From positions 1-21,490 of the IMG/VR virus record IMGVR_UViG_3300046836_000343: a stretch of DNA of 21,490 nucleotides. One strand, written 5' to 3'. Positions 242 to 18,429 of this stretch are shown here, piece after piece. The position numbers and the translations under genes are program-made. The notes below the pieces were generated by a model. That model had not been told where the DNA came from. It worked only from the letters and a program-made list of their open reading frames with translations, and did not search any database. Position 1 is the stretch's first letter; each line of letters opens with the position of its first letter. This stretch comes from a virus.

Positions 242-269
242 GCCGCCGAGTAAAATCTGGCGGCTTTTT
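242..269 (+). terminator. Rho-independent terminator of the PEP-CTERM gene
   Basis: A perfect 6-bp stem GCCGCC (242-247) / GGCGGC (259-264) encloses an 11-base loop and is followed directly by TTTTT (265-269). It lies 26 bases after the stop of the plus-strand gene. Read on the minus strand, the same hairpin has no T run after it, so it serves mainly the plus-strand gene. The stop codon of the minus-strand fibre gene (268-270) sits inside the T tract. Confidence 0.75.
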
Positions 270-2640
270 AGTGTAGCGTCCACGACCCAGCCGGAATCCC
301 GGTGACTTCCCAGTGGGTGGTGTCCACGCCAAGCACGCAAATCTCATCTCCTGCTGATCCCAAGGAAATGATGTAGCCGTTGCTTACGGACAGCGTTCCA
401 GAAGCAATGATGAACTGGCCGATGCTGGTTTGTATCTTCAGCGTTCCAGTATCGGCTGCTGACCCGTTGTAGCTGTTGGCGAAGCAGTATTTGCGGCCAG
501 CCGCCGCGCCAGGGAGGTTGTACACAATCGCTGTCGCCGCAGTCGCGTTCTGGTTCAAGTGGTAGCTGGTCTGGTTTGTGGTTCCAACCGTGACCGGAGT
601 GGTCGTGTCAATAAGGACCGGAATCTGTCCGTCGATCTTCCCGGTAACACTCAGCGATAGGCCAGTGGCTGCCCCAATGACCGGAGCCGTGAAGGTTGGG
701 CTCGACTGGTTGCCTATTGGAACCCAAGCGCTACCGTTGTAGAAGCACCAAACCTCGATAGACCCGCCACCAGTCGCGCAGTCTCCAGTCATCGAATCGT
801 GAATCCAGTCGGTCTTGATATTTCCGCCAGCAGGCAAGCTGCCCTGCACGGTCGAGCCGAAGGTGAGAGTGTTCACACCAGAGATGGCCGAAGCCACGAT
901 GGACTGCGAAGAGAACGTGCGCGTGGTTAGATCGAGGACCGTATTGCCAACGCTACCAGCATTGAAGTCGTCTACCGGACTGCCCGAAGTGTTGCTGTAG
1001 AGCACGGTAATAAAGTTGTTCTGCGAAGTGTTATCGACAACCTTAAAGCTGTGTATGCACTGGCTGGCGTCAGAAGATGAGTACGTGTACTCGCTACGAC
1101 TAGAGAATGAGGTCAGCTTGATGAGGCTTGCGTATCCGCAGTTCGTACCAAGAAACGGAGCCTGCTCACCCCACAGGGTAACGGTGTTGCCATAGTTCCC
1201 CGAACTGCGACCCTTGTTTTCAAAAGCCGCTCCGGTCGGATAGGAGTCCGAGTAGTCGCCCACCAAGTTAAGGAACTTCGTTACGTTCACATCGGCACCA
1301 AGAACTGCCCACTGCCGCATGTTCTGGAAGTGAACGTTGTCAATGTCCGGAGCGCCGTAGCCGCAGAAATCAGAGAGCGTCGATCCCGCAACGCAACTGG
1401 TGTAGGTTGCTGAATCGGGGTTGCCGAAGAACGCGCCATCGTTCGATGGGCAAGCGTGGGTACTATCAGCGCAGTTCCCCCCTCCACCCTGTGCTGGCGT
1501 CAAGCCACGGAATACAACGTTATGCAAAACAGGCGTGGAACCCGTGAAGATGATGCCCTTCGTGCTGGCCACGTCCATCGACACGTACATATCACGCAAG
1601 CCGCACGTGCCGAACTGTAAGCACTGGATATGCCAGTTGCTCGTGGCAAAAGTGAAGTGCAATCCAGACTTCGGAGGCGGAAGGGCGGCATTCAAAATAC
1701 TGCTCGGGTTGCCCATTGCCTCAATAATCGTGTTTGCTGGCAACACTAAGTCGCATGTCATCAACTTGGTGAGATTTGCTCCGGAAAGCTGAATGATCCC
1801 CCCACCAGCAGCCTGAACCTTCGCCAGCAATCCAGTGCCCCCCGTATTAAACGCCGCGCAGGCATCCGTTGAATCGTCTGCCGGAACACCGTACTCGTCT
1901 GCGATAAAACGGTTGGGGCTGACTACGACCGGGGTTCCACTTGCTCCCATACCAACCAGTTGACCCTGCGTTCCAACTAAGCTCGCAACGGCTCCGGTCG
2001 TAGTGGTCACCCATATCAGCCCGGTACTGAATCCACCAGAGAGCTTCAGTCCGCCAGTGCCCGCACTGTGCAGGTCCAAGATGCCAAGCGCTCCCAACGT
2101 ATGCGTGTGCGTGCCGCTGTTGTAGGTGAGATCGGTATCGCCACACAGAACTCCGCTGCAATTGAACTGCATTTGAGTGTTTGATCCGGCAGCCGTTCCG
2201 CCCACGATGGTGAGGGTGTAGTTGGGATCGGACCCACTGAACGAACACCCCACGCAGTTCAGAACTCCAGAAGAACTCATGACCCCAACTGGCGACCCGT
2301 TGTTTTGGAACCCTAGACTGGTGATACCGCTCCCAGCGTTCAAGACCACTCCGTTGAACATTAGCTGGTCGCTCACGTTTACGCACAGTCCGAGGTTGCC
2401 GCTGTTGGCGTTGTTCTTCCATGCCAAGCAGTCGCTCGTAGACATGCGCACCACGCCAGTGGACGCCGGATTTGTAGACTCGCTCAGGATGTACCCCAAG
2501 ATCGCGTACGGCATGGTCTGGGGAGCCGTGAACACGTTCGGATAATCCGTGGCAGCATAGGTGTGGGTTTGCGCTACGCCAACGCTGGCGCATAGCAGAA
2601 CGAGTCCGAGGATCGCAATCTTGCCAAAATTCGGCACCAC
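268..2640 (-). CDS. Exported tail-fibre/spike-like protein with pectate-lyase-type beta-helix segment
   Basis: 790 residues from a GTG start at 2640, chosen because GAGG lies 8 bases upstream; a longer TTG start (2670) would overlap the previous gene. Residues 1-23 form a signal peptide: K7, a hydrophobic run I8-A18, and a GVA|Q cleavage site at 21-23. No lipobox is seen. The segment NVFTAPQT (35-42) and NSGTHTHTLGALGILDLHS (174-192) resemble phage fibre stalk repeats. Residues 244-310 (RFIADEYGVPADDSTD, then AGGGIIQLSG) match the opening of pectate-lyase-superfamily parallel beta-helices, as in tailspikes and polysaccharide depolymerases. The last ~100 residues look like a compact beta domain ending in THWEVTG. 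The mature part has 20 Cys, many closely paired. It is the last gene of the minus-strand block. A spike or depolymerase role is inferred; no catalytic residues could be assigned. Confidence 0.8.
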   Translation of the reverse strand: MVPNFGKIAILGLVLLCASVGVAQTHTYAATDYPNVFTAPQTMPYAILGYILSESTNPASTGVVRMSTSDCLAWKNNANSGNLGLCVNVSDQLMFNGVVLNAGSGITSLGFQNNGSPVGVMSSSGVLNCVGCSFSGSDPNYTLTIVGGTAAGSNTQMQFNCSGVLCGDTDLTYNSGTHTHTLGALGILDLHSAGTGGLKLSGGFSTGLIWVTTTTGAVASLVGTQGQLVGMGASGTPVVVSPNRFIADEYGVPADDSTDACAAFNTGGTGLLAKVQAAGGGIIQLSGANLTKLMTCDLVLPANTIIEAMGNPSSILNAALPPPKSGLHFTFATSNWHIQCLQFGTCGLRDMYVSMDVASTKGIIFTGSTPVLHNVVFRGLTPAQGGGGNCADSTHACPSNDGAFFGNPDSATYTSCVAGSTLSDFCGYGAPDIDNVHFQNMRQWAVLGADVNVTKFLNLVGDYSDSYPTGAAFENKGRSSGNYGNTVTLWGEQAPFLGTNCGYASLIKLTSFSSRSEYTYSSSDASQCIHSFKVVDNTSQNNFITVLYSNTSGSPVDDFNAGSVGNTVLDLTTRTFSSQSIVASAISGVNTLTFGSTVQGSLPAGGNIKTDWIHDSMTGDCATGGGSIEVWCFYNGSAWVPIGNQSSPTFTAPVIGAATGLSLSVTGKIDGQIPVLIDTTTPVTVGTTNQTSYHLNQNATAATAIVYNLPGAAAGRKYCFANSYNGSAADTGTLKIQTSIGQFIIASGTLSVSNGYIISLGSAGDEICVLGVDTTHWEVTGIPAGSWTLH

Positions 2641-2659
2641 GTCTAATACCTCATCCTCT

Positions 2660-5119
2660 CTAATTCGCAACGGAAATCCCGCCGTTAGGCGGAATCACTT
2701 CACAGCATCCGACCGTTAAGCTATCTCCGCCCGCATGAAACAACGCTGGGTTTGTCGGCGCGAAGCCGAAAAGCAAATAGTTCTCAATGTCTTTTGCGAT
2801 AGTCGATGTCACCCACGCTGGAGGCGTCACAGTATTCCCGCTCACGTCGAAACCGTACAACTGAATTGCCGACTGCCCGAGGTTATAGGGCGCGGTAACG
2901 AACGTGAAGTGGTCGCCCGATGTAGTCCCAGTCAGTGCGCTGAAACTGATCGAGGTTGTCGTGTGCGAAGTGACGACTGCTGACCCTCGGAAGGTATTGA
3001 AGTCCGAGGAATAGACGGCTACCACGTCGGTGTTGTCCACGATACCCAGAGTGCTGAAGTTCACGTTTGTATCGTTGATCGTGGTCGTGCTGGTGCCGCT
3101 GGTGGCGACGTAATCTCCGCCCTGGCTGGCGCAGTTGATCGTGCTTGCTGCCTGTATCTTCCACCACGAGCAAACCGTTCGCGTCGAGTCCTGAAAGAAC
3201 GGATTGATGTGCTGGTCGTGCGTGCCCCAGTCCGTACCATACGTGCCGCCCGACGAGAAGTAGGCAGGGCGTACCTCTACCGTGTCTCCCCCTACATAGG
3301 TAGGGATAGCCCCAGTAAGCACGATGGCGTTGGCATTGGTGACGCTTTGAACTATGGCGTACGTGTTCGGGCTCTGCGTGACATCGACAATGTAATCCTT
3401 CGCTGCCGCGTTGGTGCCACAGCCAGTGCAGGCTACATTGACTCCGCCCGTGATCGTGACTGTTCCAGTAAAGGTCTTGGATGCTGTAGTTGGAACCGCT
3501 ACCCAACTCGGTGTGGCCCCGAGATTAACCTGAATCTGAGATGTCTTGGCCGCTCCGGCTCCGGGGTCGCCTGATCCCGGCATCTGCCAGAAGAAGTTCC
3601 AGTCGGTATTCGAGCTAGTCGCGGTCTGGCGAAACGTTGATCTGTAGGCAGACGACGAATGAATACCATCGTTGCCAGCAAGGCTCGTACCCTGTAAGGC
3701 CGAAGGAAGTACAAACAGGCTGTTGGCTTGCTTTAAGAACCCTCCGGCGTAGCAGTTAAGCTCGCAGATCGACCCGCCGAAATCGTTAAACATTGTGTCG
3801 TGCGTGATCGTGACCGTCTCGACCGATGCCGCATTAAGGGTGAAAAGTGTCCCGCTGGCGTTGATGTGAAGATCGTTGGTCGCAGTGTAAACTCCGCCAT
3901 CTTGGTAATCATCGCCAGCGTCGGAGGCGCGATAGCCATCTCCGTCAAAGACCATGTGGGTGTACGTGTTCGCCGTGGTGCCGCAAGTGTTGTTGGTAGC
4001 GACAATGTGGTGCTGGTTGGAAGTGTGATTCAGCATCACCCAATCAGAGAAAACATCAGCGCATGTTTTGGACGCCGAGAGCGCACTTGCACTGGTTGTG
4101 CCGGGGGCATTGATGCGGTCTACCACGTTGAGCACGTTCTGAAGCCCATTGCCCGTGCGTCCCGGAAACCGCATGAATACGTTGTAACCGATAAGACCCG
4201 GATGCGTACTGTCTCCACCTGTCATCCCGGTAACGTTCATATTGAGCTGATACTCATGAGACGAGGGATAGCCAGAAGCCGTGACGCGGAATGTGCGATT
4301 GCCGCTGGTGGTGGTGCTATTGCTAACTTCTAGACATTCGAACGGGTTTCCTCCGGCGCTCTGATCCTGGCAGCGCGTGAACGAGACGCCATCGAATGTA
4401 TCGGCCAGGGTGCCGCTGTTCCAGCCCATTAAAACTACGCCGTCGTTGTCGAACAGCGAATTGCCCTTCGCAATAAATCCGACAGTTGTCGGTGTTTGCC
4501 CATCATTGAAATTGATGGCCGGGAGAGCTGCCGCCCCATAGTTCGTTACCGCCCCACGAACCTGCGTCCAACCGGGAATCTGCCCGCTGAAGGCAGCGCC
4601 GTGGTTGATCGTGCAGGTGCTGGAAGAACCCTTAGCGCAGTTCAGGATACCCAGCGTTCCGGTTGTGGTGGTACACGTTGATTCGGCACAAATCTGCACG
4701 ACCGGCGATCCGCCGCCTTCGGTGTCGATGACATAGGCACGGGAATCTCCCGCGCCAGCCGGATCAAGCAAAAATGTTCCGCCATAGATGTCGAGTGCGC
4801 CTTTCATGGCTACACCACCACGCATTGTGAATGTCGCGCCTGCCAGCACTTTGAGCGTTCCGCCAGCGGCAATGGTGATGTCAGTACTTCCCGCGCCAGC
4901 AGCAGACGTGCCTAGATTGCAGGACTGTCCGGCCTCGCACTGCATTACGCAGGCGCTCTGGATGCTAGTGATCGTGTCGCCGAAGGTAGGCGTGCCGTTC
5001 GGTGTCCAGTCCGTCGAGGTATGCCAGTTGCGCGTTCCGGTTCCCGAGCATGAAGTAAATGTCGTGGCAGATGCAAACACCGGCAGCAGGAGAACGCACA
5101 GGAATAGTAGTTTCTTCAT
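2660..5119 (-). CDS. Exported beta-solenoid-like structural protein
   Basis: 819 residues, ATG at 5119 with an excellent ribosome site (AGGAGG, 5 bases before the ATG) that overlaps the stop of the upstream gene. The N-terminus MKKLLFLCVLLLPVFASA is a textbook Sec signal peptide with KK, a hydrophobic core and an ASA|T cleavage site after residue 18. The mature protein is Gly/Thr/Ser/Asn-rich with short repeating hydrophobic strands (for example GGTLKVLAGATFTMRGG). This is what a right-handed beta-helix or phage fibre looks like. It has 20 mature Cys, often as close pairs such as CELNC, CTGC and CAESTC, and ends VGCCEVIPP. No enzyme motif is recognised. It sits between two other signal-peptide proteins at the end of the structural operon, so a host-interaction or surface role is inferred. 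The exact family is unknown to me. Confidence 0.75.
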   Translation of the reverse strand: MKKLLFLCVLLLPVFASATTFTSCSGTGTRNWHTSTDWTPNGTPTFGDTITSIQSACVMQCEAGQSCNLGTSAAGAGSTDITIAAGGTLKVLAGATFTMRGGVAMKGALDIYGGTFLLDPAGAGDSRAYVIDTEGGGSPVVQICAESTCTTTTGTLGILNCAKGSSSTCTINHGAAFSGQIPGWTQVRGAVTNYGAAALPAINFNDGQTPTTVGFIAKGNSLFDNDGVVLMGWNSGTLADTFDGVSFTRCQDQSAGGNPFECLEVSNSTTTSGNRTFRVTASGYPSSHEYQLNMNVTGMTGGDSTHPGLIGYNVFMRFPGRTGNGLQNVLNVVDRINAPGTTSASALSASKTCADVFSDWVMLNHTSNQHHIVATNNTCGTTANTYTHMVFDGDGYRASDAGDDYQDGGVYTATNDLHINASGTLFTLNAASVETVTITHDTMFNDFGGSICELNCYAGGFLKQANSLFVLPSALQGTSLAGNDGIHSSSAYRSTFRQTATSSNTDWNFFWQMPGSGDPGAGAAKTSQIQVNLGATPSWVAVPTTASKTFTGTVTITGGVNVACTGCGTNAAAKDYIVDVTQSPNTYAIVQSVTNANAIVLTGAIPTYVGGDTVEVRPAYFSSGGTYGTDWGTHDQHINPFFQDSTRTVCSWWKIQAASTINCASQGGDYVATSGTSTTTINDTNVNFSTLGIVDNTDVVAVYSSDFNTFRGSAVVTSHTTTSISFSALTGTTSGDHFTFVTAPYNLGQSAIQLYGFDVSGNTVTPPAWVTSTIAKDIENYLLFGFAPTNPALFHAGGDSLTVGCCEVIPPNGGISVAN

Positions 5120-5128
5120 GGTGTCCTC

Positions 5129-5815
5129 CTAGTTGAACGTGTAGTTGACCTGCGCGAATAGCACCGCACTGGTCCCGTCTGCCGTCCCGTCTGCCGTGGT
5201 TTGGATTATGTCGCCAATGGCCAGGGAGGTTGCGGAGAGCGTTCCGCAGGTCACCGAGACGCCGCCGATGGTGATAGCTGTTCCGCCAGCGTTGACGCAC
5301 GCCACGTTTAGACCGCTGACCGATGCCGGGGTAATGGTTGCGGAAAGCGCAGTACATACCCCACCATTGAGATCGCAGAAGCGTATCGTGCTGGCTCCAG
5401 CGTCCGCCAGGACGATGATTTCCTTAACCGTCGCTGCCGCTGCAATTTCGCACAGATCGCCCTGGGAGCGAAGCTGGGCATTCACGAGTACCGGACCAGC
5501 GTTGTAACCCGCTCGGAACGGACAGCGCTGTATCAAGCCTCCGCCACCTGTACCACCAGCGGCGTGAACCCATACACTGCCGGTGTACTGACAGGTCACC
5601 AACGTAGAGCCGCTGCCCGCCGTACAGTCCGCTGAGTTAGTGCCGTCCGACACGGTGGCCAGCGTCCCAGCTTTTTGCCCGGTAGGAAGCGTTGCAACCG
5701 TGTAGGCTCCACCAGAAATAGCGAGCTTCGGATTGAACCCAGTTGACGGACCAATGTCCTGCCCGTAAAGCGCGAGCGGAAGAAAGACCAGGAACGCAAG
5801 TACTCGCTTCGTCAC
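5129..5815 (-). CDS. Exported fibre-like protein, Cys-rich
   Basis: 228 residues from a GTG start; AAGGGGGA lies about 8 bases upstream and directly follows the stop of the previous gene. The N-terminus MTKRVLAFLVFLPLALYGQ has KR, a hydrophobic core and a probable cleavage around Y17-G18|Q19, so it is a likely signal peptide. Residues ~37-85 (YTVATLPTGQKAGTLATVSD, later TCQYTGSVWVHAAGG) resemble the short 'YTVATLP..GQ.A.VSDG' modules found in phage fibre and receptor-binding proteins. The mature part holds 8 Cys in 210 residues. It is first of three consecutive exported fibre-type genes (with 5119-2660 and 2640-268). Function is inferred as fibre or surface protein; no catalytic motif is visible. 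Confidence 0.72.
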   Translation of the reverse strand: MTKRVLAFLVFLPLALYGQDIGPSTGFNPKLAISGGAYTVATLPTGQKAGTLATVSDGTNSADCTAGSGSTLVTCQYTGSVWVHAAGGTGGGGLIQRCPFRAGYNAGPVLVNAQLRSQGDLCEIAAAATVKEIIVLADAGASTIRFCDLNGGVCTALSATITPASVSGLNVACVNAGGTAITIGGVSVTCGTLSATSLAIGDIIQTTADGTADGTSAVLFAQVNYTFN

Positions 5816-5828
5816 GAAAATTTCCCCC

Positions 5829-6401
5829 TTAAAGAAGAGTTAGCGATGGCAAAATTTTGTCGCTAGTGGTTCCGTCGAACCAGTAGCTGTCGCTCGTTAG
5901 CCCTGGCGTGCTTCCGTACATTGGATCGGCAAAGTTGAACGGCTGAATGCCGCTCGACGTAAACTCCAGAATCGCAATCACGCCAACCCCGGTAGCCTTC
6001 ACCATAGTGGCTGAATTGCCGATGTAAATCTTGCCCGCATTGCCCTCGTTGCATTGCACAAAAAAACTGACGCAAGGAATTGCGAGTTGGACGAAGACAG
6101 TCGCAGCGTGTGAGAACTGCAATCCGAATCCATCTTGGCTTCGCACACGCAAGACAGTTCCGCTAACAACTTTCTGAATCAGCAATCGCTCTGGGTTAGC
6201 GCCAGCGGGATCGAGAATGATGTTGTCGCCATTCTTAAACCCACACCCTGGAATCAACGAGAACGCCCCAACCGTAAGATCGAAGTAGTTGCCACCCAGC
6301 AATGGGTTTGCGGCCACCGCTGTAGTCAGAGTGGTTCCGAATACCGGCTGCGGCGTTCCACCTGCCGCGAGCGTTACAAACCCCCATGTGCGCTTTCCCA
6401 T
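5829..6401 (-). CDS. Putative virion structural protein
   Basis: 190 residues, ATG at 6401 overlapping the previous stop in a TAATG junction, so translation is probably coupled. There is no signal peptide or membrane segment. The composition (Gly/Thr/Val/Phe with many short hydrophobic strands, e.g. GKIYIGNSATMVKATGVGVI) is typical of small beta-rich phage tail or head-surface proteins. Only three Cys are present, unlike the three exported proteins that follow. I do not recognise a specific family. Position, between the connector group and the fibre genes, suggests a tail or baseplate-like component. Confidence 0.7.
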   Translation of the reverse strand: MGKRTWGFVTLAAGGTPQPVFGTTLTTAVAANPLLGGNYFDLTVGAFSLIPGCGFKNGDNIILDPAGANPERLLIQKVVSGTVLRVRSQDGFGLQFSHAATVFVQLAIPCVSFFVQCNEGNAGKIYIGNSATMVKATGVGVIAILEFTSSGIQPFNFADPMYGSTPGLTSDSYWFDGTTSDKILPSLTLL

Positions 6402-6594: not shown

Positions 6595-6864
6595 TTACCC
6601 TCTCTGGAGATTGTTGTGGTCGTAGTTGTAGGGCGCACTCGCTACGCCGTAAGCATTCTCTAGCTTGCGAAGCTGCCGCAAGCTCTGTACCTGGATCGGA
6701 GTGCCCTTGCCGTCGATGTGAGTCGAAACAAACGACTCGAAACCTTTCGCGGTATCGCGGTAGGCGGATGAATTGTGAAACTCGCACACCCACCCGTCGC
6801 CCTTTTGGACGAACCGTCCGCCCTCAGTCTTGCAGCCCTCAACCTTGCAATGGCTTCGCTCCAT
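6595..6864 (-). CDS. Small putative zinc-finger phage protein
   Basis: 89 residues from the ATG at 6864, which overlaps the connector stop in a TAATG junction; an ATG six bases further upstream is possible but lies inside the connector gene. The N-terminal third carries C6-x4-C11-x15-C27-x2-H30 (HCKVEGCKTEGGRFV then WVCEFH), a spacing compatible with one structural zinc site. The rest is a mixed helix-like region (QVQSLRQLRKLENAYG) with a polar tail. No named family is recognised. It lies between the connector candidate and the tail-end genes, so a virion or assembly role is possible but unproven. Confidence 0.68.
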   Translation of the reverse strand: MERSHCKVEGCKTEGGRFVQKGDGWVCEFHNSSAYRDTAKGFESFVSTHIDGKGTPIQVQSLRQLRKLENAYGVASAPYNYDHNNLQRG

Positions 6865-7856
6865 TACCATCCATCTCCCACGTCGTGTGATTGTTCATAC
6901 TGTGAACCGAACTGCGCCATTGGCCAGTTGTTGTAATCCCACTGCAAATCTTGCTGCCACTGGGTGTTGTCCATACCCTTCATCTTGTTGATCTCGACCG
7001 TGGCAAGGTTCTGGAAAATCTGGGAGGTCTCCGGGTTGTAGTACGGATTACCCTTGCCGCCGAACAGCAGAGCTTTCGCAACTCCCAGGTTCACCAAGAT
7101 GTCCGTCCGCAAGAACGACACTGGGTACGAATCATCGGCCTGCATGTCGGGAGGCTGAATAATCGCCAGATAGGGAAACGACTGCTGGAACGTCGGAGCC
7201 GGGTAAAGCTCCCACAACGGTGACCCGTCCGGACTCATCGCGTAGCTGGCAATCAGCCACGTCCATCCCATCTGCGTGCGCCACGTGTCGAAGCGATTCA
7301 GTGCTGCCTGCGTCATATTCGTAATCAACTGGTAGCCCTGTTGCTGGTTCACCATTTGATACACGCGCTTCACGTTGTTCCCCAGACTGACAATGCTCTG
7401 GAAAATCTGGTAGCCGATGCCGGTGTAAGTTGGACCACCCCAGTTCAGGTCCAAGGTGAACTGCCCTGCACCTTGCACGCTCTGAATTGTATAAATAGGT
7501 TGCGAGAACCCAATGCGGAACTGCCGCCCGATCATCGCATTGGTGAACATCGTTCCGGAGCCGGTGACAATCGGACTGCCGGTAATGACGGTGACCTGCC
7601 CTGCGCTGTAGTTCTGCGGCACCGTGACCAAGCCCTTCACGAGAAGTCCGTACCAGTTCCGCTCGTCAATCAGCGAACGGTACGCGGTCTGCACCCAGCG
7701 CTTCAGCATCATTGGCGGGACAGTCGGATTCCACTGTCCGATCTCTCCGCAGATTTGCCGGAACGTGAGTTGCGTTGTCGCAGGCTTCGACTGCAGGGTG
7801 ACCTGCTGGCCGACGCCGTACTCGAACGCAGGACCGCTTGGGGGAGGGGCGGGCAT
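6864..7856 (-). CDS. Head-tail connector / adaptor-type protein
   Basis: 330 residues, ATG at 7856 in a TAATG junction with the upstream gene. Residues ~28-75 (LTFRQICGEIGQWNP, then LKRWVQTAYRSLIDERNW) form an alpha-helical opening with the R-x-L-x-D-E-R-x-W pattern seen in phage adaptor proteins. A later segment (SPDGSPLWELYPAPT, then YLAIIQPPDMQADDSYP) resembles the 'LWPxP...Y...RRPP' part of gp11-like or head-completion adaptors of short-tailed and siphophages. Such proteins form the ring below the portal and bind the tail. Only one Cys is present. The call rests on remembered family features and on being the only mid-sized virion-like gene between capsid and fibre genes. It could instead be another tail protein. 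Confidence 0.6.
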   Translation of the reverse strand: MPAPPPSGPAFEYGVGQQVTLQSKPATTQLTFRQICGEIGQWNPTVPPMMLKRWVQTAYRSLIDERNWYGLLVKGLVTVPQNYSAGQVTVITGSPIVTGSGTMFTNAMIGRQFRIGFSQPIYTIQSVQGAGQFTLDLNWGGPTYTGIGYQIFQSIVSLGNNVKRVYQMVNQQQGYQLITNMTQAALNRFDTWRTQMGWTWLIASYAMSPDGSPLWELYPAPTFQQSFPYLAIIQPPDMQADDSYPVSFLRTDILVNLGVAKALLFGGKGNPYYNPETSQIFQNLATVEINKMKGMDNTQWQQDLQWDYNNWPMAQFGSQYEQSHDVGDGW

Positions 7857-8205: not shown

Positions 8206-8333
8206 TACATCCGACCTGCGCCGATCTTCTTCCGACCGCCACGCTTCTTTGACATCTTCCGCATGGGCTTCATCCCCATCGGAGGACCGGCCATTTCTTC
8301 ACGCTGCTTGTTGCGATACATTGACTTTGCCAT
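8205..8333 (-). CDS. 42-residue basic, Met-rich protein
   Basis: ATG at 8333 with GGGAGG 5 bases upstream, TAA at 8205-8207; both ends form TAATG overlaps. The protein starts MAKSMYRNKQREEMAGPP, continues with eight further Met-containing short steps (MGMKPMRKMSKK) and ends GGRKKIGAGRM. It contains eight Met in 42 residues. The C-terminus resembles the tails of the flanking small proteins (RK-x-G-x-GR). The strong ribosome site and the coupled position support it as a real gene. Function is unknown; a small virion or DNA-associated protein is plausible. Confidence 0.63.
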   Translation of the reverse strand: MAKSMYRNKQREEMAGPPMGMKPMRKMSKKRGGRKKIGAGRM

Positions 8334-10153: not shown

Positions 10154-11116
10154 TTAACCCGTGATGCCCGACAGCTTAAACATCAAGCGCGGTGCGACGT
10201 TGAGAAAGTTTCCGGCAAACAGGTACTGACCGGCCACGTCATCCGTGTTCTGCGCTTCCTTCCAGCCGGTGAAACCGAACTGGTATTTCGGAAGCGTGCT
10301 GATCCAGAACTGGATGTACTTCGTGTTCAGGCCGTACATGAAGCCGGCTGGCGAGTACTGGTCAACGGTAAGCGACGAACCGTTGTACCGGATCGCTTGG
10401 AACCCAGCCTTCACGACATCGCTGGATTCCTCCAGGAAGCGCTGTTGCGGCTGCAGCTTGTTCCAGAAGATGTCCCAAATGGATTGGGTTGTCACGATCA
10501 GGTCAACGTGCTCGTTGCCGAACCATGTCGCGCCATAAGCCGTCTGAACATCCTTCAATCCAAGCGTGGTTACCGAAGCGAAGTACGCGTTGATGCCGTT
10601 GTTCGCGCCGGTCGCAATGTTGGCCCGCACGATGTTGGCGTAGTTGGCGAAGTTCGATCCATCGTCAATGGCAGCGTTGAAGCCATCCAACTGGATAACC
10701 GAAGACGACGTGCCCTGACCATCCAGGAACAAATCGGTGCCAAGCAGCTTGGCCATCTTGCCCGCTGCGTTGACCATCTTCGATTCCACCAGTGACATGG
10801 CGGCTTCCGGCCCCCGGTTCAGCACGTTGTCCGTACCGAAGAGAGTGCAGTTCACGTAGTAGTACTTGACCAAGACTTCCAGCGCCGTGTCCGTCTGGAC
10901 ATAGCTGGTGTCGAAGGTAGCGCCACGCGTGAAAGCTCCGCCCTTCAGTTCGGCATACATGATTGGGTGCCGAATGGTCTGGCCACCCTCGAACTTTTCC
11001 ATGTTCTTCGTCCGAAGACGAGTGAAAATGGGGCTGGACTTGTAAACGTTGTCCACCAGACGCGGAACGATGAACTTGTTTGTCTTAGATGTGAGATCGT
11101 CGTAAGTCAAACTCAT
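10154..11116 (-). CDS. Major capsid protein (HK97-fold type)
   Basis: 320 residues, ATG at 11116 with AAGGA 7 bases upstream. It opens MSLTYDDLTSKTNKFIVPRL and has VYKSSPIFTRLRTKNMEKFEGG (first 20: VYKSSPIFTRLRTKNMEKFE) followed by IRHPIMYAE. This is the usual start of a phage coat protein: an N-arm, then a conserved 'splla.l....GG..i..P' strand. Further on, DLIVTTQSIWDIFWNKLQPQ and a YNGSSLTVDQYSPAGFMYGL segment match the P-domain/A-domain layout of coat proteins of about 320 residues. It has only one Cys. It lies directly between scaffold and decoration genes, the standard head-module order. A small GC hairpin (11147-11162) precedes its ribosome site. Confidence 0.85.
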   Translation of the reverse strand: MSLTYDDLTSKTNKFIVPRLVDNVYKSSPIFTRLRTKNMEKFEGGQTIRHPIMYAELKGGAFTRGATFDTSYVQTDTALEVLVKYYYVNCTLFGTDNVLNRGPEAAMSLVESKMVNAAGKMAKLLGTDLFLDGQGTSSSVIQLDGFNAAIDDGSNFANYANIVRANIATGANNGINAYFASVTTLGLKDVQTAYGATWFGNEHVDLIVTTQSIWDIFWNKLQPQQRFLEESSDVVKAGFQAIRYNGSSLTVDQYSPAGFMYGLNTKYIQFWISTLPKYQFGFTGWKEAQNTDDVAGQYLFAGNFLNVAPRLMFKLSGITG

Positions 11117-13484: not shown

Positions 13485-13682
13485 CTATTTATAGCGCTTC
13501 ACCGTCGTGGACTCCACTCCAGCTATCCCGCCATCCTTGAATTCGAGCTTCACCATCCCGGTTGTCTTCGCAATTACATGCGAGGCGATGGCTTCATAGA
13601 CTTCTTGCGTAATGACAATCGTGCGCCCTTGCTCACTCACCAGTGAGCACGTTGGTTTGTTGATTTGCGCAACTGTCGCCAC
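13485..13682 (-). CDS. Small protein with DUF2292-like C-terminus
   Basis: 65 residues from a GTG that overlaps the portal stop (TAGTG at 13682), so translation is coupled. The N-terminal part (TIVITQEVYEAIASHVI) is a strand followed by a helix. The C-terminal GMVKLEFKDGGIAGVESTTV resembles the 'G.V.I...DG.I..VE' end of small DUF2292/YezG-type proteins, although the match is weak. One Cys. Function is unknown. The gene is the last of the unit that ends at the terminator 13352-13397. Confidence 0.66.
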   Translation of the reverse strand: MATVAQINKPTCSLVSEQGRTIVITQEVYEAIASHVIAKTTGMVKLEFKDGGIAGVESTTVKRYK

Positions 13683-15496
13683 TACTTGTGCCCTCCGCCT
13701 TTCTTCGGCGGCAGCAGTGGAACCCCTGCCTCGCGCTCTTTCTTCAGGTTCTGCTCAACCGTGTCGGCGTTCAAGCCAAAGTCCAACCGCTCGAATAGCG
13801 TCTTGCGGTCGAGGTCACCCAGCTTGCGAAGTCCGAGTAACTGATTGGCTTCATCGAGCCGCTGGATGTGCAGTAAACTTCCCGGCTGAATCGAAAATTG
13901 AAACCGGCGAACGTGATCGGTTGGGTTGATGTCCGCTGGAACCATCGTGCCGGGATCGCTGTCAGTATCGGCAGCCAGCAATCCTTTCGACCCCAGCATA
14001 AAGAAGCGCCGTTCCTTGGTATAGAACTGCGTGAATCCGGAAATCCCCATTTGTCCAACCGGCGTCAAGAAGTTCTCGATCATCCTCCCCTTTAAGCGGT
14101 AGGGAGTATTCTTTGCTCGTCCAATCGCTTCCAGCGTGTCGCCACCCGGCACCTGCTTCTTCCGGAGAGCTTCGTCCATTGCCGACGCGCCCGACTGCTC
14201 CTTCATGTCCTTCGCGATCAAGCCATACGTCTGCATGACGTACGCGGGAATCTGTGGAGCTTGCGTGAGTTCCGGTTTGGATACTGCCATCTGGTTGTAG
14301 GCAGCCTTGAAGCTCGGCAAGCTGAGGTCTAGCATCTCCCACGTTGCGGGATCGAAGGCGTTGGTCGGCGCGATGATGCCTGGGTTGGTCGCCTTCTTAA
14401 TCATGTCCAACACGCCAGCCAGAATGCTATTCAGGATGTCCTGCAACTCCGACCATGAGCGCACGTCGCTCATGCCATAGAACTGCCACGGCACCACGTT
14501 CATCCGCAGGCACGCGAACGGCTTCATCCCGTGCCAATAGGGATTCGGCCCATCGTGTAGGATGGCGCTGTCGCCGCCCATGATAACCAAGCGGCCACGC
14601 GGATACAGTAAGTCCCCTGGCTTAACGTGGTACTCCCAGTTGGACCCCTTCAATCCCATGATGACTTCTTTGTTTGAAGTGTTATAGGAGAAGTCGTTAA
14701 ACCAGTGCTCGCGATACAGCGCCATTGGATAAGCGCTCTGCTTCAACTCGCCGGGCTTGCCCAGGAGCCGCTGCATCTGCGGCGACAGCAAGTTATATTG
14801 CATGGTACCGATATGTGCAGGTTTGGTATCGGGGAGAGCGAACTTCGAGTAGGTGGGATCAGCTTTGACTAGCGAGCCACGGGCTCCAAACTTGTGCTTA
14901 AAAAACGACAGCGGCTGTACGGCCTGATAAATAATCGCTTCGGCGGAATCCAGTGTCAGCTTCGGCTTCAGCGGCAAACAGTCGTTTGGTCCCAGCGGGA
15001 TGAGATCGAGGTCTCCCCATCCGTTCAGCTTGGATGGGTTCCACTCTACCTTCGCAAAGCCAGTGGTCAGCATCGCGTAGATAATGACGAGGGCAAGACC
15101 CAGGTCGGCAGATGATTGCGTCCACCACGCCTTAGTCAACTCGTTAAGCACCTTCGCCTGCATGAGAAATGCAGGGTTAGAATCAATCGACTTGACCTCA
15201 TAGATCGGCTTCAGGTCGGTGAGATTCCCGATTGCCTCCCAGAACAACTTCCACATGTGGTTGTTGACTGGTTTCGACTTCTTCTGCGAGCGAGCCCTGG
15301 GCCACTGCTTACCTGCAAGGTAGTCAATCATCTTCCCCATGTTCTGCACGTCTTCGCTGGCCGCAACGTCAGCCTTAGCTTCTTCGAGCGCAGCATTGCA
15401 CCAGTACGAAAGCTGGGCGTAATACGGCGACCCGCCTTCCGGCCACAACGTATCTGTACCGAGCTTTGGTTGCAAATCAGGGAAGAAGGTTCCCAT
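13682..15496 (-). CDS. Portal protein
   Basis: 604 residues, ATG at 15496. Portal hallmarks appear in order: MIDYLAGKQWPR (56-67) and PVNNHMWKLFWEAIGNLTD (76-94), the early 'Y..G.QW...N' motif; GWGDLDLIPLGPNDCLPLKP (159-178), the wing strand; PRGRLVIMGGDSAILHDG (299-316) with NPYWHGMKPF (318-327), the 'GGR.v......L.dgpnPy.hg..P' motif; YGMSDVRSWSELQDILNSIL (340-359), the clip/stem entry; and a long helical C-terminal part. It forms the 12-fold ring through which TerL packs DNA. The size and style are those of short-tailed (podovirus-like) and some siphovirus portals. It has 3 Cys. The ribosome site AAGGAA lies about 12 bases upstream. Confidence 0.85.
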   Translation of the reverse strand: MGTFFPDLQPKLGTDTLWPEGGSPYYAQLSYWCNAALEEAKADVAASEDVQNMGKMIDYLAGKQWPRARSQKKSKPVNNHMWKLFWEAIGNLTDLKPIYEVKSIDSNPAFLMQAKVLNELTKAWWTQSSADLGLALVIIYAMLTTGFAKVEWNPSKLNGWGDLDLIPLGPNDCLPLKPKLTLDSAEAIIYQAVQPLSFFKHKFGARGSLVKADPTYSKFALPDTKPAHIGTMQYNLLSPQMQRLLGKPGELKQSAYPMALYREHWFNDFSYNTSNKEVIMGLKGSNWEYHVKPGDLLYPRGRLVIMGGDSAILHDGPNPYWHGMKPFACLRMNVVPWQFYGMSDVRSWSELQDILNSILAGVLDMIKKATNPGIIAPTNAFDPATWEMLDLSLPSFKAAYNQMAVSKPELTQAPQIPAYVMQTYGLIAKDMKEQSGASAMDEALRKKQVPGGDTLEAIGRAKNTPYRLKGRMIENFLTPVGQMGISGFTQFYTKERRFFMLGSKGLLAADTDSDPGTMVPADINPTDHVRRFQFSIQPGSLLHIQRLDEANQLLGLRKLGDLDRKTLFERLDFGLNADTVEQNLKKEREAGVPLLPPKKGGGHK

Positions 15497-16269: not shown

Positions 16270-18429
16270 TCAATACAGTTTCCACTGATCGTCTTCCGGT
16301 GTTACGTCCGGACTCGACCCTCCATACAATGCCATCTCTCTTACCGCGTGCTCCGGAATTCCCTGCCCGTAATGCAGGTCGTGCTGTAGCCCCTTCCGGT
16401 CGTGAATTGGACTGAACTCGGAGTTGGCAAAGTCCGCTTTGGCCGGTCCCAGTTTAATCGACCACCCTGATTTTCCAGCCATAAATTCCTTCGCAGCCTC
16501 TTCAGACGGAAACGTACCACGCACGCGAAATAGGGAGTCGAGCACAATATGTATGCAGTCATTTTTGTCGGACGTGCGCGGCTTCGCAGCGGCTAACTTG
16601 CCAAAATCTGAATCGTGAGCACACCAACGAGCGATCATCATCGCGATGACGCGATCATCGTTCGACTCCTGCCCTTCGAAGCGCGAGCCTTCATCGCTGG
16701 AGAAGTCAAAACACTCTTCGATGAGGTAGTCGTCCCGCAGAATGATTGAGCCATCGTCAATCGCTTCGCGGAACTTCGCGATGATGAGGTCTCTGGTCTT
16801 CGAGTTTGTGTACCAACCGAACCAGTCCGTGATCGAGTGCTTAATCTTGTCGTAGTGCTTCCAGCGGAATAGGTTCTGATACTGCAGTACTCGCATCAGT
16901 TCGTTATTCGTTGTGGTGCCCACGTCGTTGCACTCGACTGCGACCTGCGCCGTGTTGTAGAAGTATCCCAGTGCCGCCAGTACGCTCGCATACGGAGTCG
17001 GGTTAATCCACCCATGCCAACAAGCCACCTGAACGTCTGGCTCTAAGCCGTGCCCAATCTTGATGATCTGAGCGCAGGAGTAATCACCGCCAACCAAGCC
17101 GTGCGCTACGTCTGCAGAAACGTAGTAGCTCTCGCCGCGCTCTGGCATCTCCCAGATGTAGAGGCGGGTTCCCACGTCTACCGCTTCTGGAACCTTATCG
17201 GGATCAAGTTCCCCAATCTCGCGTCCGACCTTTTGTCCCTTCAGCCTGTAGGTCTTATCCGAAGCGTCTTCGAGAATGATCTCTCCAACCCAGGCGGGCT
17301 GGGCAACTGTCGTCTCTCTGATTGACTGCAGCTTCCGTCTGTTGAACGCGCAGATGCCTGAACCTTGGAACGCTTCGTGCCACGACGTTGAAGGGTATTC
17401 CTGATAGAACAGCCACTCATCACCGTGAAGAGTTTCGAATTCCTTGATCTTCTCCCGCTTCCAGTACAACTGCTCGTCGGTGATGACGATGTTCCTGGCG
17501 GTCTTGATTTTTTGTTTAAGCGCGACTTCTTCCGGCGTCAACTGGAAGGAAAGGTTTTTCGGAATTGGCAGTGAGTACTTCTTGACGCGGAAGAACTCAA
17601 TGAAAATCGGAGTCCAGTCCTTAATCTTGCCTCGCGCCACATCGTTCCAGAACCGATACCACAAATTGTTTCTGCCGCGAGCCGTCGATTCAAGGATTGC
17701 CAGCGTGTCGGGAGCGTTCAACGTGGGGAAAATTTGCGTCGAGAGAACCTGCGCTTCCGGCCACGCGGAAAGCTCAGACAAATGGCAGGCGCGAAGAGTC
17801 TTGCCGACTGCGACTCCGGTGTACTTGTTTGCTGCTTCTACGAAGATGGCCGACTGCAGGCCGGGATTCAAGATGCGTTCGTACTCATCCTTGCGGTCGA
17901 GTTGCAGGTAGCGTCCCTTCGCTTCATACCGGGCTTCTGGGCGCATCCACCACGGAAGACGGTCGTACGCACGACGCGACATCGAGAACAGGTAATCAGC
18001 CTGCCCTGGGTCTTGCGCTACCACCAGCGTGTTGCAGACTTCGGTGAAGATCGTCTTCCAGAAGATCATGCCCTCGGATAAAGTCGAGAGCCCCAACTGC
18101 CGCGCCTTCAGCACGAGCACCTTACATGGCCTACCGGCCACCATGATCTCGATGCACTTGCCGAAGAAGATTTCCTGGGAATCCCAGAATGGGTTGAGAG
18201 TGTGAAGTCCTTTACTCTCGGAAGCGATTACGTGGTAGTTCTCCAGGTAGTAGCGCATCCCAGTGATAGGCTGGGAACACCGGGAAATTTCTTCATCAAT
18301 AATCTGCTTTTCGTATGAACTGAGGGAAAGAGCCGCCTCTTTCACATCTCCACGAGCCCGTTCGTAATGAAAATTCAAGACCTCTATCATCTCGTTCAGA
18401 TAGGGGTCTTTGCGGTGAATGCTGTCCAC
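16270..18429 (-). CDS. Terminase large subunit
   Basis: 719 residues from a GTG start at 18429 (GGAGAA 12 bases upstream, overlapping the TerS stop). The ATPase domain shows a deviant Walker A, KARQLGLST (108-116), of the R-Q-x-G-x-S/T type used by phage terminases. It also shows a Walker B/catalytic region, LRACHLSELSAW (212-223, E219), and the coupling motif ESTARG (247-252). The nuclease domain has SADVAHG (D440), GGDYS (D449), AVECNDVGT (E499, D502) and NDDRVIAMMIA (D591/D592), the expected RNase H-like acidic set. It is longer than the usual 450-600 residues; the extra length is mostly a C-terminal tail after about 610. It cuts and pumps genome DNA into the prohead with TerS and portal. 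Confidence 0.9.
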   Translation of the reverse strand: MDSIHRKDPYLNEMIEVLNFHYERARGDVKEAALSLSSYEKQIIDEEISRCSQPITGMRYYLENYHVIASESKGLHTLNPFWDSQEIFFGKCIEIMVAGRPCKVLVLKARQLGLSTLSEGMIFWKTIFTEVCNTLVVAQDPGQADYLFSMSRRAYDRLPWWMRPEARYEAKGRYLQLDRKDEYERILNPGLQSAIFVEAANKYTGVAVGKTLRACHLSELSAWPEAQVLSTQIFPTLNAPDTLAILESTARGRNNLWYRFWNDVARGKIKDWTPIFIEFFRVKKYSLPIPKNLSFQLTPEEVALKQKIKTARNIVITDEQLYWKREKIKEFETLHGDEWLFYQEYPSTSWHEAFQGSGICAFNRRKLQSIRETTVAQPAWVGEIILEDASDKTYRLKGQKVGREIGELDPDKVPEAVDVGTRLYIWEMPERGESYYVSADVAHGLVGGDYSCAQIIKIGHGLEPDVQVACWHGWINPTPYASVLAALGYFYNTAQVAVECNDVGTTTNNELMRVLQYQNLFRWKHYDKIKHSITDWFGWYTNSKTRDLIIAKFREAIDDGSIILRDDYLIEECFDFSSDEGSRFEGQESNDDRVIAMMIARWCAHDSDFGKLAAAKPRTSDKNDCIHIVLDSLFRVRGTFPSEEAAKEFMAGKSGWSIKLGPAKADFANSEFSPIHDRKGLQHDLHYGQGIPEHAVREMALYGGSSPDVTPEDDQWKLY

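Follow-up and report, generated by a model that had tools for sequence, protein, structure and literature searches.

The three genes that close the structural operon of a podovirus-like phage each begin with a segment that has the features of a Sec signal peptide, and genes tagged in the same manner recur at the equivalent position in many related phages. We consider it evenly balanced whether these genes encode Sec-exported, disulfide-stabilized fibers or spikes of an Acidobacteriota phage that join virions late. The window, meaning the whole stretch of DNA that was analyzed, is a 21,490-base IMG/VR virus record that carries its structural operon on the minus strand. The operon runs from terminase through an SU10/P22-like portal, a phrog_9953 capsid protein, a neck-type protein and a conserved 190-aa gene to the three genes, here called FibA, FibB, and FibC. 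Their place downstream of neck-type genes is that of tail fiber and tailspike genes in Caudoviricetes, and their coordinates were found to be those given in the initial annotation.

16270 to 18429, minus strand: terminase large subunit
13682 to 15496, minus strand: portal protein (SU10/P22-like)
10154 to 11116, minus strand: major capsid protein (phrog_9953)
6864 to 7856, minus strand: conserved neck/adaptor-type tail protein, marker for the fiber block
5829 to 6401, minus strand: conserved gene (190 aa) immediately upstream of the fiber block, with homologs in 18 related loci, used as a synteny marker
5824 to 5830, minus strand: FibA ribosome binding site AAGGGGG, 8 nt before the GTG start at 5815
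5129 to 5815, minus strand: FibA, 228 aa, fiber-type, predicted Sec signal peptide at residues 1 to 18, 8 Cys in the mature part
5762 to 5815, minus strand: FibA signal peptide MTKRVLAFLVFLPLALYG, predicted cleavage before Q, score 6.4
5125 to 5130, minus strand: FibB ribosome binding site AGGAGG, preceding the ATG start at 5119
2660 to 5119, minus strand: FibB, 819 aa, fiber-type, predicted Sec signal peptide, 20 Cys in the mature part
5066 to 5119, minus strand: FibB signal peptide MKKLLFLCVLLLPVFASA, predicted cleavage before T, score 9.7
2649 to 2652, minus strand: FibC ribosome binding site GAGG, 8 nt before the GTG start at 2640
268 to 2640, minus strand: FibC, 790 aa, fiber/spike-type, predicted Sec signal peptide, 20 Cys in the mature part
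2572 to 2640, minus strand: FibC signal peptide MVPNFGKIAILGLVLLCASVGVA, predicted cleavage before Q, score 7.4

By eye, FibC also displays an N-terminal NVFTAPQT fiber motif and, around residue 257, a stretch that resembles tailspikes. At the window edge, positions 3 to 215 of the plus strand encode the C-terminal part of a PEP-CTERM/exosortase-type protein that converges on FibC, and a terminator-like hairpin follows the end of this gene at about 240 to 270. Among 28 records, a PEP-CTERM match was present in just one other (that of locus L067, 90403). The gene could be host DNA bordering a provirus, cargo carried by the phage, or part of a chimeric end of the contig.

Signal peptides were assessed with a hand-set score that rewards a positive n-region, an uncharged hydrophobic core, and an AxA-type site, and that was set without calibration on a large training set. 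On this scale the trio falls within or slightly above the range of eight exported E. coli proteins (5.8 to 9.4), whereas the other seven window proteins scored reach about 3.0 or less, and a value of at least 5.5 is attained by chance in 1 of 414 internal 80-codon windows. All three N termini combine a basic n-region and an uncharged hydrophobic core with small residues at −3 and −1, as is typical of signal peptidase I substrates, with the FibA site (LYG followed by Q) being the weakest. Neither FibB nor FibC contains a second hydrophobic segment of equal strength. Because ribosome binding sites lie upstream of the starts, the signal peptide segments are predicted to be translated. Both the scores and the starts thus bear out the claim of the initial annotation that all three proteins carry Sec signal peptides.

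Direct searches of IMG/VR and INPHARED returned no homolog of FibB or FibC. Comparison of the trio with the 66 viral loci recovered by a capsid search, and with the loci added by a neck-profile search, yielded no real homolog and one short, weak match. Likewise, searches of Pfam and PDB with the trio gave no match for a beta-helix or other fiber fold, no N-terminal virion-binding domain was detected in the three proteins, and single-sequence AlphaFold gave no usable model (pLDDT 35 for FibA and 33 for FibC). A weak resemblance between a central FibA motif and Escherichia phage proteins (E 0.3) was set aside, as the one inspected is a moron protein without a signal peptide. Because the FibB and FibC homology searches were empty, synteny was used in their place.

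Fiber genes at the syntenic position in related IMG/VR phages, although not homologous to the trio, often carry signal peptides, frequently in runs of two to four consecutive genes. Three tagged genes occupy the fiber position in L002/L084 and in L008/L078, two or three do so in L038/L099, and tagged genes are also present in L006, L043, L047/L108, L064/L085, L080, L087, L088, L092, L093, and L101. Two loci fetched after the idea had been formed, L199 and L200, contain three and four. On a tree of the neck protein, tagged loci all fall within one large part of the family; the L014/L020/L051/L058 and L026/L060/L063 branches have none, and several untagged loci inside the tagged part show no large fiber gene. 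Signal-peptide tagging is a family-wide trait and not a quirk of one contig. Conservation of the signal peptide is seen here by position, among non-homologous genes, since homologs of the trio itself were not found. Two further loci deserve mention. A 2187-aa frame downstream of the neck gene in L083 has an additional signal peptide in its interior, around residue 773, and probably represents two tagged genes fused by an assembly frameshift; it was left out of the parity test described below. A small lipoprotein-type signal peptide (LLVGC), spanin-like by eye, is encoded at 8224 to 8649 of L182 (the record of L067).

The tagged proteins also share a distinctive cysteine content. Among complete proteins encoded downstream of the neck gene, the median is 2.32% Cys for tagged and 0.92% for untagged proteins. 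The latter value is 0.71% for untagged proteins of at least 350 aa (p 5e-6), a set that includes nozzle-type and non-structural proteins besides fibers, so that the cleaner contrast is provided by Tunturi_3, a same-host phage considered below. The number of cysteines in the mature part is even in 29 of 32 tagged proteins, with p 1e-6 against an expectation of 0.5 and p 3e-4 against the rate in untagged proteins, of which 62% have even counts, although the tagged proteins are in part kin to one another and these statistics overstate their independence. Even counts were likewise found in all seven tagged proteins of L199 and L200, as they are in the trio (8, 20, and 20), and the cysteines of tagged proteins are close neighbors more frequently than in 500 shuffled versions, indicative of paired clustering. 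This cysteine-rich, even-numbered pattern points to real export of the tagged proteins. Together with recurrence in relatives and isolates, it gives good support to the export cassette proposed in the initial annotation, whereas the beta-helix fold assigned there to the same proteins found no counterpart in Pfam or PDB.

The same features bear on whether the N-terminal segment is removed at all. If it stayed uncleaved and worked inside the cytoplasm or as part of the virion, such as a hydrophobic plug anchoring fiber trimers in the tail hub, no new step beyond normal cytoplasmic assembly would be needed, and homologous tailspikes of other phages do assemble without such a segment. We regard this explanation as improbable, because basic n-regions, sites of the type AxA followed by Q, and a Gln at +1 in 20 of the 32 tagged proteins correspond to what signal peptidase needs of a substrate, and the even, paired cysteines would be left unexplained. 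A Gln at +1 is also common in one sampled Acidobacteriota genome.

Evidence that the tagged proteins are fibers or spikes comes from relatives of the window phage. Four of these (L078, L080, L084, and L085) share an N-terminal domain located directly behind the signal peptide; among annotated phages, this domain best matches the N termini of tail spikes from Enterobacter phage Arya and Escherichia phages Alux-21 and ECO1230-10. The tagged fiber of L085 additionally ends in a C-terminal tail-fiber domain (phrog_863, 7e-28). L193, the clearest occurrence of the N-terminal domain in a sample of Pseudomonadota, is without a tag and opens with the domain itself. When 396 Acidobacteriota genomes were searched with a profile of the domain, one further tagged gene emerged, and a neck-profile search of 297 Acidobacteriota genomes gave one distant full-length match, on a short contig that shows no tagged fiber. 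The further tagged gene (L187; L197 13809 to L198) lies in an Acidobacteriota chromosome, and its 1121-aa product combines the tailspike-type N-terminal domain with 22 cysteines in the mature part; the gene is close to a recombinase-like gene, outside any recognizable phage structural block.

The trait also extends beyond this family. Among annotated phages, the capsid search gave distant matches to phages of Tunturiibacter (Acidobacteriota). In the isolated podovirus Tunturi_1, five of the six consecutive genes gp12 to gp17 (gp12, gp13, gp14, gp16, and gp17) carry signal peptides, two of them annotated as "tail spike" (gp14) and "virion structural protein" (gp17); one other protein outside this block passes the score among the 38 scored (100 aa or more). 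In Tunturi_1 and Tunturi_2 the signal-peptide genes are the main fiber candidates, there being no other large one between the neck gene and the lysis genes. The Tunturi_2 counterpart of the tagged Tunturi_1 gp14, also named gp14 (L178, 9363 to 12119), is annotated with "pectin lyase activity." In the unrelated siphovirus Tunturi_4, gp113 and gp114 are tagged and the tail fiber gp111 is untagged. Tunturi_3 infects the same host strain as Tunturi_1, and its fibers are untagged and cysteine-poor, which shows that the trait is not imposed by the host. No signal peptides were found on the tail proteins of Myxococcus phage Mx8, Stenotrophomonas phage BUCT555, or two Manatee Spring podoviruses.

Could the signal peptides be mere remnants, carried along passively when the phages captured genes for secreted host proteins? 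In favor of this, fiber modules are swapped frequently, and a similar tagged gene resides in a host chromosome. Nevertheless, the signal peptide is kept by non-homologous proteins at the same operon place in many phages, and Tunturi_1 gp17 and Tunturi_4 gp114, which share modules in different architectures, both begin with one. Such an origin therefore appears very improbable.

The alternative that the proteins are exported without entering the virion is a serious rival, although we judge it less likely than not. As secreted fiber-like adhesins or depolymerases, they might coat or clear the surface of the infected cell, prevent superinfection, keep progeny from adhering to debris, or loosen the polysaccharide of the matrix. 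Neither signal peptides nor even cysteine counts go beyond export-type features, and the untagged Tunturi_4 tail fiber beside two tagged proteins, the pectin lyase annotation of Tunturi_2 gp14, and the tagged chromosomal gene outside a structural block would all fit free secreted proteins. Set against this are the signal peptides that precede tailspike-type N-terminal domains in relatives and the lack of another large fiber candidate between the neck and lysis genes of Tunturi_1 and Tunturi_2; moreover, it would be unusual for one phage to encode three to five secreted adhesins. Given these tailspike-type N termini, the tail-fiber C terminus in L085, and the tagged main fiber candidates of Tunturi_1 and Tunturi_2, a role as the virion's own fibers seems at least as likely as the surface change, superinfection block, or matrix degradation put forward in the initial annotation.

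If the trio are virion fibers, they would be synthesized as tail fibers or tailspikes bearing a cleavable Sec signal peptide, be translocated across the inner membrane, and shed that peptide, after which disulfides would form in the oxidizing periplasm. The hardened fibers would then join virions late, and the simplest occasion for this would be lysis, when periplasm and cytoplasm mix. The host is probably a member of the Acidobacteriota: the Tunturi phages infect this phylum, the further tagged gene lies in one of its chromosomes, and an Acidobacteriota metagenome-assembled genome (MAG) contains a capsid match; a second capsid match lies in an Alphaproteobacteria MAG. Tailed phages assemble in the cytoplasm, and an exported fiber would thus be kept apart from the particle until lysis, which counts against the virion-fiber reading, as do the tagged chromosomal gene and the undetected virion-binding domain in the trio.

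More generally, we tentatively propose, with the balance tipping slightly against it, that certain tailed phages infecting Acidobacteriota finish their receptor-binding fibers outside the cytoplasm, through Sec export, periplasmic disulfides, and attachment at or after lysis. If true, Sec-routed fibers would need a late assembly step that departs from standard cytoplasmic assembly, and disulfides would become available to phages for fiber stability, perhaps a useful property in acidic soils. Some signal-peptide-bearing "pectin lyases" in soil viromes may likewise be tail fibers that are miscounted as secreted metabolic genes. No earlier report of an assembly route with Sec-exported tail fibers was found in the open-access literature. 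The Tunturi paper (PMC11924767) makes no mention of signal peptides in its main text, and no proteomics was found in it.

The tail fibers and tailspikes of Caudoviricetes such as Arya, Alux-21, and ECO1230-10 resemble the trio in operon position, and their N-terminal domain is homologous to that of the window's relatives. Unlike the tagged versions, however, these Enterobacteriaceae phage spikes begin with the domain directly at Met, without a signal peptide and without the two cysteines. The coat proteins of filamentous phages have signal peptides and pass through Sec before joining the particle, and in this respect they are virion proteins routed as proposed for the fibers; filamentous phages, however, assemble at the membrane during extrusion, whereas the window phage has tailed-phage terminase, portal, and capsid genes. 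Phage signal peptides are also found on lysis, spanin, and superinfection-exclusion proteins, which are usually small membrane or periplasmic proteins. These share predicted use of the host Sec system with the window's fibers, but the tagged fibers are 200 to 1400 aa long, cysteine-rich, and encoded in a structural operon. Although Tunturi_1, Tunturi_2, and Tunturi_4 have other capsid lineages and podo- or siphovirus morphologies, and homology to the window's fibers was undetected, they resemble the window phage in having rows of fiber genes whose products carry signal peptides and even numbers of cysteines. Because Tunturi_1 to Tunturi_4 are cultured, the proposal is directly testable.
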